Below, piece by piece: positions 35,212 to 37,180 of a stretch of 64,000 bases of DNA; position 1 is the stretch's first letter, and the number at the start of each line of letters is the position of its first letter. Position numbers and translations under genes: made by a program. The stretch comes from Rickettsia endosymbiont of Cantharis rufa. Its GTDB lineage: Bacteria; Pseudomonadota; Alphaproteobacteria; Rickettsiales; Rickettsiaceae. The notes beneath the pieces are model-generated. The model made no database searches. It saw nothing but the letters and a program-made list of their open reading frames with translations, and was not told where the DNA came from. Where the stretch lies: positions 1,178,001-1,242,000 of the forward strand of contig NZ_OZ032150.1 in assembly GCF_964026445.1 (NCBI RefSeq). Direction: 5' to 3'.

Positions 35212-36017
35212 TTTGTTATAAAAATTTTATGTTCATTAGCGAGTTTTGTAGTTAATTCTTCTTCGACTATAATTACGTTATTTTTCTGAATCGCTACTCC
35301 CTTGTAATTATATTTAGCAAGATTTTTTATAGTATTAGGACCAATCGTTGGCATATCTAGTCTATTATCTTGACCTAATTTCGGTATTTTTACCAATACT
35401 CCCCCATAAGGATTTTTACGTAAATCTGTACATCTTGCTATTAAATTATCCGTCCCTTCGGCAGCCTCTATACCAAGGATATATCCACTTTCAACTATAA
35501 CCGATTGTGCGATGTCGAATGAACTTAGATGATTTAATAATTTCGTTCCAAGCTCAATATCATTTTTATCTGAACTCGCAAGGGTGGTATCGGTTATAAT
35601 ACTGGAGTCACATTGTTGATTTTTATATATTTCATTACTTGAAATTACTTTAAAACCGTAGCTTTCAAAAAAATATGCTACTATTTTTAGCAAACTATCA
35701 TCCCCTCGAATTTTTTGTCCAAGTATTTTGAAAAGCAATAAACCACCTATTTTATCTACGGCTAAATTTTTAAAATTCGGTCTATTAACTCCACCTATAA
35801 AAATAATATTTTGTACTTCATTATCCTTGAAATATTTTATAGCTTCCCCGACCATACCGATTTTTAAAACTTTATATTCAAAATTTTTAATTTGATCTAT
35901 ATCGGCTTCGTCTTTAATTGCGGCTATACAACAATTACCGCCTTGCTTTGTATAGTTATCTGCTATTAAGTAAGGTAATGAACCTCTGCCGGCGATAATT
36001 CCAAGATTTGGTAGCAT
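35205..36017 (-). CDS. lpxI: UDP-2,3-diacylglucosamine diphosphatase LpxI
   Basis: 270 residues. Typical start LGIIAGRGSLPYLIADN; NIIFIGGVNRPNF; the DUF1009 core RGDDSLLKIVAYFFESYGFK; and a C-terminal motif RCTDLRKNPYGGVLVKIPK with KLGQDNRLDMPTIGPNTI. Produces lipid X for lipid A synthesis; the alphaproteobacterial replacement for LpxH. Divergent from ssrA, whose promoter lies about 70 bp from its ATG. Confidence 0.92.
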   Translation of the reverse strand: MLPNLGIIAGRGSLPYLIADNYTKQGGNCCIAAIKDEADIDQIKNFEYKVLKIGMVGEAIKYFKDNEVQNIIFIGGVNRPNFKNLAVDKIGGLLLFKILGQKIRGDDSLLKIVAYFFESYGFKVISSNEIYKNQQCDSSIITDTTLASSDKNDIELGTKLLNHLSSFDIAQSVIVESGYILGIEAAEGTDNLIARCTDLRKNPYGGVLVKIPKLGQDNRLDMPTIGPNTIKNLAKYNYKGVAIQKNNVIIVEEELTTKLANEHKIFITKC

Positions 36018-36085
36018 AATAAGTTTTTAATTTAGAAGTCTAAACATTTATTATAAGTATATTTTTAATATAAATCCAGAAAACC

Positions 36086-36114
36086 TTTACATTTTAATCA
36101 AATTAAGGCATAAT
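36086..36114 (+). promoter_or_regulatory. Promoter of ssrA
   Basis: TTTACA (36086-36091), 17 bp spacer, CATAAT (36109-36114). Predicts transcription from about 36121, the start of the tmRNA acceptor piece. Confidence 0.55.
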
Positions 36115-36120
36115 ATTTGG

Positions 36121-36199
36121 TGCTAGTAATAGCTATAGTAATAAACGTAATTTGGAATAGAGGTTGCGGACTCGGGGGCAGTACCCGACGCCTCCACCA
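36121..36199 (+). ncRNA. ssrA: tmRNA, acceptor piece of the permuted gene
   Basis: This is the 3' half of the tRNA-like domain. The T-arm stem TCGGG/CCCGA encloses GGCAGTA, followed by the acceptor strand CGCCTCC (36189-36195), A and encoded CCA (36197-36199). CGCCTCC pairs with GGGGGCG at 36368-36374 (one G-U pair), which lies downstream: this is the circular permutation known from alphaproteobacteria, giving two RNAs after processing. The 5' end is set only by the promoter prediction. Confidence 0.85.
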
Positions 36200-36216
36200 A
36201 TACTCGATGTTGTATT

Positions 36217-36317
36217 TGTCATCCCCGCGAAGGCGGGGGTCCAGGGTAAAGCGAGATAAATCGAGCTTTCAAATAAAGCTTTAAAGTACTGGATTCCCGC
36301 TTTCGCGGGAATGACAT
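36217..36317 (+). repeat. Rickettsia palindromic element, type A, between the two tmRNA pieces
   Basis: TGTCATCCCCGCGAAGGCGGG ... AAAGCGAGATAAATCGAGCT ... CTGGATTCCCGCTTTCGCGG ... GAATGACA. It fills most of the transcribed spacer (36200-36367) that must be cut out when the tmRNA precursor is processed. Confidence 0.85.
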
Positions 36318-36367
36318 AGGAGTCGTACACAAAGGCCTCGTCTACACAGACATAACATCAAAATCTT

Positions 36368-36563
36368 GGGGGCGAAATAGGATCGACGTGCCTAATAAAA
36401 AGATTGCTTTTACTCGGGATGATTCCGCCGATGGCTTTTGTCATATGGGTCAAAACAAAGAAACGCAAACGATAATAATCGTGTAGGTGCAGCTTTAGCA
36501 GCTTAACCTTACGCGGCTTGGGGGTTTGCCGGGCAACAGAAAAACCCTCGCGTATACTCGTTT
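36368..36563 (+). ncRNA. ssrA: tmRNA, coding (tag) piece of the permuted gene
   Basis: Begins GGGGGCGAAATAGGATCGACG, the universal tmRNA 5' sequence. The tag frame starts with the resume codon GCA at 36465 and reads ANDNNRVGAALAA, stop TAA 36504-36506; the ALAA end is the ClpXP degron. A GGGGTTT/AAAACCC-type pseudoknot stem (around 36522-36547) follows. The 3' end is approximate; the downstream palindrome may set it. tmRNA frees stalled ribosomes with SmpB (not in the window). Confidence 0.9.
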
Positions 36564-36678
36564 AATTTGAAAAATTAGCGTCGTTGTTTCATATTTTTTG
36601 ATCCTCACGTACTAATATGCACGCTGCGGTCAAAAATATAAAACACCCTGCTCTTTTTCAAATTAAACTTCGTCTACC
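36559..36678 (+). repeat. RPE-1-like palindrome between ssrA and sspB
   Basis: GTTTAATTTGAAAAATTAGC ... CTCTTTTTCAAATTAAACTTC. The terminal arms match the elements at 40322 and 55144. It immediately follows the tmRNA coding piece and supplies a false upstream extension (from 36617) to the sspB frame. Confidence 0.7.
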
Positions 36679-36700
36679 TATTTTTATTTATTTTTCTCAT

Positions 36701-37180
36701 ATGAATACCGAATATAAAAAATTTGTGAATGAATATATGCTAGAATTTGTGAAAAAAATTCTAGCAAAAATTCAGCATGAAAAATTATATTGGGATCAGT
36801 TAATATATATATCATACAGAACCGATAACCCTGCGGTAATTTTACCCTTAAAAGTTAGGCAAGCATATCCAAAACAGATAACAATAGTACTGCAATATCA
36901 GTTTGAAAATTTAATAGTAAATGATACGGGCTTTTCTTTAACAGTAAGTTTTGACGGTGTTAAAGAAATAATTTACGTACCTTTTGATGCACTTATAAGT
37001 TTTGTTGATTCCAATAATAATTACAGCCTAACTTTTAAGAAGTCGTTAAATATACAAGAAAATCATCAACATGAAGAGGAAATAAGTAATAATGAAAGTT
37101 ATAAAACTTCATTATCTCCAAATCCAAATGTTATAATGTTAGATAAGTTTCGTAACTCTTCTAAACCCAAACCTAGTTAA
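36701..37180 (+). CDS. sspB: SspB-family ClpXP adaptor
   Basis: 159 residues from ATG 36701 (MNTEYKKFVNEYMLEFVKKI). An in-frame ATG at 36617 exists, but its first 28 codons are palindrome DNA. The SspB core shows PLKVRQAYPKQITIVLQYQF, FSLTVSFDGVKEIIYVPFDA and ISFVDSNNNYSLTF. The C-terminal tail NVIMLDKFRNSSK matches the ClpX-binding tail of alphaproteobacterial SspB. SspB tethers ssrA-tagged proteins to ClpXP. It lies right after the tmRNA gene, and rnhA follows 9 bp downstream. Confidence 0.88.
   Translation: MNTEYKKFVNEYMLEFVKKILAKIQHEKLYWDQLIYISYRTDNPAVILPLKVRQAYPKQITIVLQYQFENLIVNDTGFSLTVSFDGVKEIIYVPFDALISFVDSNNNYSLTFKKSLNIQENHQHEEEISNNESYKTSLSPNPNVIMLDKFRNSSKPKPS

Follow-up and report, generated by a model that had tools for sequence, protein, structure and literature searches.

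A CGTC-1 REP dimer in the spacer of an ordinary permuted tmRNA gene of Rickettsia is most likely a neutral passenger

Does a palindromic repeat lying between the two halves of a permuted tmRNA gene hinder the maturation of that RNA, take part in it, or simply ride along in RNA that is discarded? The question is raised by a locus in the 64,000-nucleotide stretch of DNA from a Rickettsia endosymbiont that was analyzed here (the window), which an earlier note had read as a permuted two-piece tmRNA gene with a complete 100-bp palindromic repeat (RPE) in its spacer. That reading was borne out. The Rfam alpha_tmRNA model (RF01849) matched the window at 36082 to 36550 over its full length (model positions 1 to 355; 220.6 bits; E value, 1.4e-62), the tmRNA_permuted model (RF04321) matched at 36137 to 36506, likewise over its full length (model positions 1 to 213; 143.1 bits), and ARAGORN, independently, reported a tmRNA at 36107 to 36597 with the tag ANDNNRVGAALAA. 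The acceptor half lies 5' of the coding half and both fall within one covariance model, as is expected of a permuted tmRNA. The former terminates in CCTCCACCA at 36199 and the latter opens with GGGGGCG at 36368, both where the note had placed them, and the acceptor stem that it had proposed between the two halves is present in the predicted structure, with seven pairs (36189 to 36195 with 36368 to 36374). The third of these is a G-U pair, which we take to be the alanine identity pair. The features of the locus are collected in Table 1.

Table 1. Coordinates of features at and around the tmRNA locus (window positions)
Feature	Position	Strand	Basis or remark
Promoter-like, sigma-70-type TTTACA-17-CATAAT	36086..36114	+	10/12 consensus matches; predicted start near 36120
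Acceptor piece (3' half: T arm, encoded CCA)	36121..36199	+	RF01849, RF04321, ARAGORN; 5' end predicted
Intervening sequence (spacer), 168 nt	36200..36367	+	Position between halves
8-bp helix closing the spacer domain below the repeat stem	36206..36213, partner 36352-36359	+	Predicted minimum-energy fold
Head-to-head dimer of CGTC-1-type REPs (RPE-6 type)	36217..36316	+	Published description and own-genome repeat family
Coding piece (acceptor-stem 5' half, tag ORF, 3' pseudoknot region)	36368..36550	+	RF01849; approximate 3' end
Tag reading frame with stop	36465..36506	+	ARAGORN
Second RPE, of a class other than the spacer's, abutting the tmRNA 3' end	36552..36676	+	15-nt perfect inverted arms 36560-36574 / 36654-36668
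sspB, next gene	36701..37180	+	Pfam PF04386, 88.3 bits vs cut-off 27

In half order, the G-U third acceptor pair, the encoded CCA, the tag, and the presence of an intervening sequence, the locus resembles the permuted tmRNAs described by RF01849 and RF04321, from which it differs only in the length of its spacer (168 nt) and in repeat content. It is the single alpha_tmRNA match in its own genome (one contig of 1,463,984 bases). An intact one-piece ssrA elsewhere, which the note had named as a finding that would speak against its reading, was looked for in the same genome, where no match to the one-piece model (RF00023) exceeded the cut-off: all 21 matches fell below it, the seven best being of tRNA size (75 to 92 bases), and one of the 21 was the coding piece of the window tmRNA itself. 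Genes for SmpB and RNase III are present in the genome, and both mature halves are well conserved across the 23 loci read in the window's genus. At 36154, the G in the AATTTGG of the acceptor half is private to the window, the other 22 genus loci having an A. The promoter-like match is by itself no evidence, since the consensus scan returned 4 sites versus 3.6 in shuffled sequence; the stretch can be aligned 5' of the tmRNA across the 23 genus loci. A consensus scan of 35950 to 36950 found no terminator-like site on the plus strand. Judged by its sequence, the locus is a two-piece tmRNA gene of the ordinary alphaproteobacterial kind.

The spacer hairpin was not listed by the initial repeat scan of the sequence and was revealed by folding. 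It is built from two REP units, at 36217 to 36243 and, inverted, at 36290 to 36316, with 46 nt between them, each consisting of TGTC, an 8-bp stem, a 4-nt loop, and a CCA tail, with the TGTC ends outermost; the stem of the left unit includes a T-G wobble pair. REP dimers of this kind are recognized as inverted units with their CGTC or TGTC termini outside, 20 to 100 bp apart and present in many copies, and this is the arrangement found here. At least 39 places in the window's own genome, the spacer element among them, agree with the element's sequence at 72 or more of its 102 bases, a number that rests on 40 of 246 candidates scored. The both-ends pattern was seen at 29 of the 30 own-genome loci examined, which represent 28 distinct copies, since the match in L054 is the neighboring copy of L045. 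According to the accessible text of PMC3733652, CGTC-1 REP dimers are equivalent to R. conorii RPE-6 and to Neisseria dRS3, and the RPE-6 name used here rests on the equivalence stated there, not on the RPE-6 consensus letters. With the dimers of that text, the spacer element shares the TGTC outer ends, 8-bp stems, 4-nt loops, CCA tails, and the inverted pair 46 nt apart; unlike them, it is located in a tmRNA spacer, and the word tmRNA has no occurrence in the main text concerned. On the evidence of its letters, the palindrome is best named a head-to-head CGTC-1 REP dimer of the RPE-6 type.

The 168-nt spacer has a predicted folding energy of -68.6 kcal/mol (z = -9.1; 100 dinucleotide shuffles), and in the predicted fold the repeat forms a 27-pair stem interrupted by one mismatch (36217 to 36244 with 36289 to 36316). 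The note had placed this stem at the very point of separation by RNases. It is not there, since it lies 17 nt 3' of the CCA and 51 nt 5' of the coding piece, and the CCA end itself is predicted to sit outside the repeat, inside an interior loop (36197 to 36205 with 36360 to 36366). An eighth acceptor pair (A36196-U36367) is also predicted, and the 5' cut at 36367/36368 would thus fall one pair inside the loop edge. As a measure of the acceptor stem, we took the mean pairing probability of its seven pairs, calculated with ViennaRNA in the window precursor. The native precursor gave 0.967, and omitting the repeat lowered the value to 0.725; it averaged 0.25 with a shuffled spacer (15 of 150 reaching the native value), 0.50 with a shuffled repeat (26 of 150), and 0.39 when 100 unrelated stretches of the window were swapped in (5 of 100). 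Since the native value lies above the averages of the shuffles and of other window DNA, the palindrome looks, in this gene, like a benign, self-folding insert.

How common such an insert is became clear from the comparison of spacers across genus genomes that the note had proposed. In the window's genus, as delimited by the tool used, all 23 genomes searched have a tmRNA, and all 23 spacers could be read; they measure 81 to 483 nt (median, 200). Five classes of repeat are represented, at least one in every spacer, and the references for these classes were cut from five of the same 23 spacers. A second match in G003 (L024), below the cut-off, gave no spacer and was dropped. CGTC-1 units occur in the spacers of L001, L004, L014, L016, L018, and L020 and a CGTGG relative in those of L011, L021, and L023. 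Palindrome class B is found in L003, L006, L012, L013, L015, L019, and L022, with a part in L023; class C in L005, L006, L009, L012, L013, L015, and L017; and class D in L002, L005, L007, L008, L009, L010, and L019. Outside the spacers, sequence like class B was seen, by eye, in the 3' flank of L020, and genome G010 holds 41 matches to class D. Class C stands in opposite orientation and at the opposite spacer end in L006 and L013 versus L005 and L009. By eye, L003 and L010 show joined termini alone, as deletion of the body would leave them. On a tree of the upstream flanking DNA, four group labels required 6 changes, the least possible being 3, which would seem to reflect repeated gain and loss of elements; in this tree, each row carries one label though several spacers hold two classes, L017 is unlabeled, and 7 forks are open. 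The typhus group, which the available part of PMC3733652 reports to be devoid of CGTC-1 and CGTC-4 repeats, may be missing from the 23-genome sample. An antisense function was considered for ACGTCGATCC, which in the class D spacers of L002, L007, L010, and L019 complements the conserved tmRNA stretch GGATCGACGT, and was rejected: the same ten bases occur in 8 of 20 class D copies of G010, the spacer's own included, and the other 12 copies differ from ACGTCGATCC at about one to three of the ten bases. The complementarity is probably a matter of chance.

Outside the genus, the spacers read are short. Of 58 Rickettsiaceae genomes drawn, 10 of them from the window's genus, 53 gave a match (another, weaker one in G064 was disregarded), and the five that gave none were all less than 80% complete. 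The 23 loci read outside the genus, namely, 21 of the 43 outside-genus matches plus the named records L026 and L032, have spacers of 8 to 62 nt (median, 20). Whole-match spans nearly touch, at 305 to 387 outside the genus (43 matches) versus 388 to 792 inside it. Ten of 12 named records, including those of R. rhipicephali (L028), R. australis (L031), and R. tamurae (L035), match genus loci exactly in their spacers, and the spacer of L027, from the Rickettsia endosymbiont of Omalisus fontisbellaquei, equals that of L004, whose genome is labeled as conspecific with the window. L026 and L032, both with titles of Rickettsia endosymbionts, have short spacers, of 36 and 35 nt. L032 was counted outside the genus because its spacer is identical to that of L081, whose genome belongs to another genus in the tool's grouping, and these two loci may represent one species; L026, of less certain genus, was placed outside as well.

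Is the spacer, then, a special site for such repeats? The second RPE, which abuts the 3' end of the tmRNA, has 39 matches in its own genome, itself, partial matches, and antisense matches included, and by eye some repeat stands at the tmRNA 3' flank in most genus loci, L005 and L013 being the exceptions. Within the window, relatives of the spacer sequence and of the 3'-flank sequence stand at 22 places, a count that takes coding and noncoding sites together and includes both elements of the tmRNA itself. A class C palindrome is also carried by the gene for RNase P RNA in the window's genome (L105, 1644 to 1779, within 670182 to 670704 of contig C1 of G000; 87.5% identity over 112 bases). The RNase P RNA model spans 517 to 560 bases in G000, G008, G010, G011, G012, G014, and G015, 499 in G005, and 388 to 437 in the other fifteen genus genomes, the longer spans suggesting further palindromic inserts there. 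The tmRNA spacer is probably not a very special site. As for the neighborhood, relatives of SspB hand tmRNA-tagged proteins to ClpXP, and with this role in tagged-protein delivery, the genes for the tmRNA and for a tag adaptor are neighbors here. Beyond them, rnhA follows sspB, and upstream, on the opposite strand, is lpxI.

The note had called an RPE in the spacer unusual, a view that neither the repeats in all 23 genus spacers nor the literature supports: the fusion of RPEs with tmRNA and M1 RNA in Rickettsia was described by Ogata (2002), as cited in the accessible text of Delihas (2007; PMC2229807). The present case resembles that one in having a palindrome within the tmRNA gene, with another in the window genome's own gene for RNase P RNA, a likeness known to us through that citation. 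A repeat in Rickettsia tmRNA is thus already known, and the instance in the window is ordinary. Judging from the part of PMC3767692 at hand, different RPE groups occur at or near the same site in orthologous protein genes of Rickettsia, which its authors ascribe to insertion hotspots or a common origin; those cases concern protein genes, whereas the window's concerns an RNA spacer. The longest tmRNA gene known, according to the available portion of the 2025 tmRNA database paper (PMC11915505), also has a repetitive element in its intervening sequence; there, too, the repeat is in the spacer of a permuted tmRNA, but the lineage is another and the gene measures 1152 bp. Our searches of the open literature turned up no description, at the scale of the genus, of how repeats turn over in the tmRNA spacer.

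Very probably, then, the locus is an ordinary two-piece tmRNA gene in which a CGTC-1 dimer sits in the discarded spacer, clear of the cleavage sites and without effect. One transcript would start near 36120, its acceptor stem pairing across the intervening sequence; by analogy with other permuted tmRNAs, RNase P would cut at 36367/36368 and 3' processing would trim the acceptor piece to the CCA at 36199, so that two pieces are released and the spacer is absent from the mature RNA. The dimer would fold on itself, clear of both sites and with the acceptor stem still able to pair, and would be thrown away together with the spacer; since the spacer would be disposable, dispersed palindromic repeats landing there would be kept. 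Two published cases bear on such processing. Northern blots of Orientia, in the accessible text of PMC7335160, show pieces of about 80 and 240 nt alongside a precursor of 372 nt. For R. conorii, the consulted section of PMC5105140 gives a single Northern band and a 165-nt transcriptome sequencing feature, which alone do not show two pieces.

The repeat hairpin might instead be a processing signal, with RNase III cutting the stem and so starting the separation, and RNase P and exonucleases finishing the ends. A 27-pair stem with one mismatch and the presence of a gene for RNase III speak for such an entry point, as does the folding of 20 of the 23 genus spacers at a z of -2.79 or lower versus shuffles, but no significant hairpin was found in the remaining three (L002, z = -1.31; L008, z = -0.55; L010, z = -1.86), and the 23 loci read outside the genus manage with spacers of only 8 to 62 nt. 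Since the folds of L002, L008, and L010 hardly exceed chance, there is no requirement for a hairpin, and the idea of an obligate one is weakened further by those relatives, which have no long spacer; we regard entry by RNase III as unlikely. Quite unlikely, in our estimate, is a broader version, in which the genus spacer turned from a short linker into a permanent landing place for palindromes and the precursor came to rely on an interchangeable hairpin without common origin, the elements replacing one another while usually leaving a self-folding insert in place, and the hairpin giving RNase III its entry point or keeping the acceptor strands together. The retention of a long spacer in all 23 genus genomes could hint at use rather than neutrality. 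As proof of function, folding is too weak, since short-spacer tmRNAs alone range from 0.00 to 0.99 in acceptor pairing (23 tmRNAs; for L077, at 0.00, the acceptor start is possibly one base off). Among native genus spacers, 13 of 23 exceed 0.6; compared with the mean of their own 10 shuffles, 14 lie above, 8 below, and 1 is equal. Pairing is 0.00 in six of the seven class D spacers, 0.07 in L014, and 0.04 in L022.

That the hairpin instead hinders maturation and lowers the amount of tmRNA would be in line with the note's suggestion of an influence on maturation, and a long stable structure does stand between the pieces; however, the cleavage sites lie outside the stem, acceptor pairing is predicted to be retained, and the 23 genus loci agree well in both mature halves, all of which makes hindrance very improbable. 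The hairpin may have some influence, but no result favors it, and three genus spacers do without a significant hairpin. The chance that the locus is a decaying, nonfunctional tmRNA gene is close to negligible: the private base at 36154, where the other 22 loci agree, would fit decay, against which stand the full-length 220.6-bit match, the intact tag, the encoded CCA, the conserved promoter stretch, and the presence of SmpB. The repeat is most likely a neutral passenger in discarded RNA. This suggests that selfish palindromes may persist in an important RNA gene by sitting where maturation should discard them, and the genus, with long, repeat-bearing spacers in 23 of 23 genomes versus the 23 short ones outside it, offers natural replicates for the effect of spacer structure on tmRNA processing.
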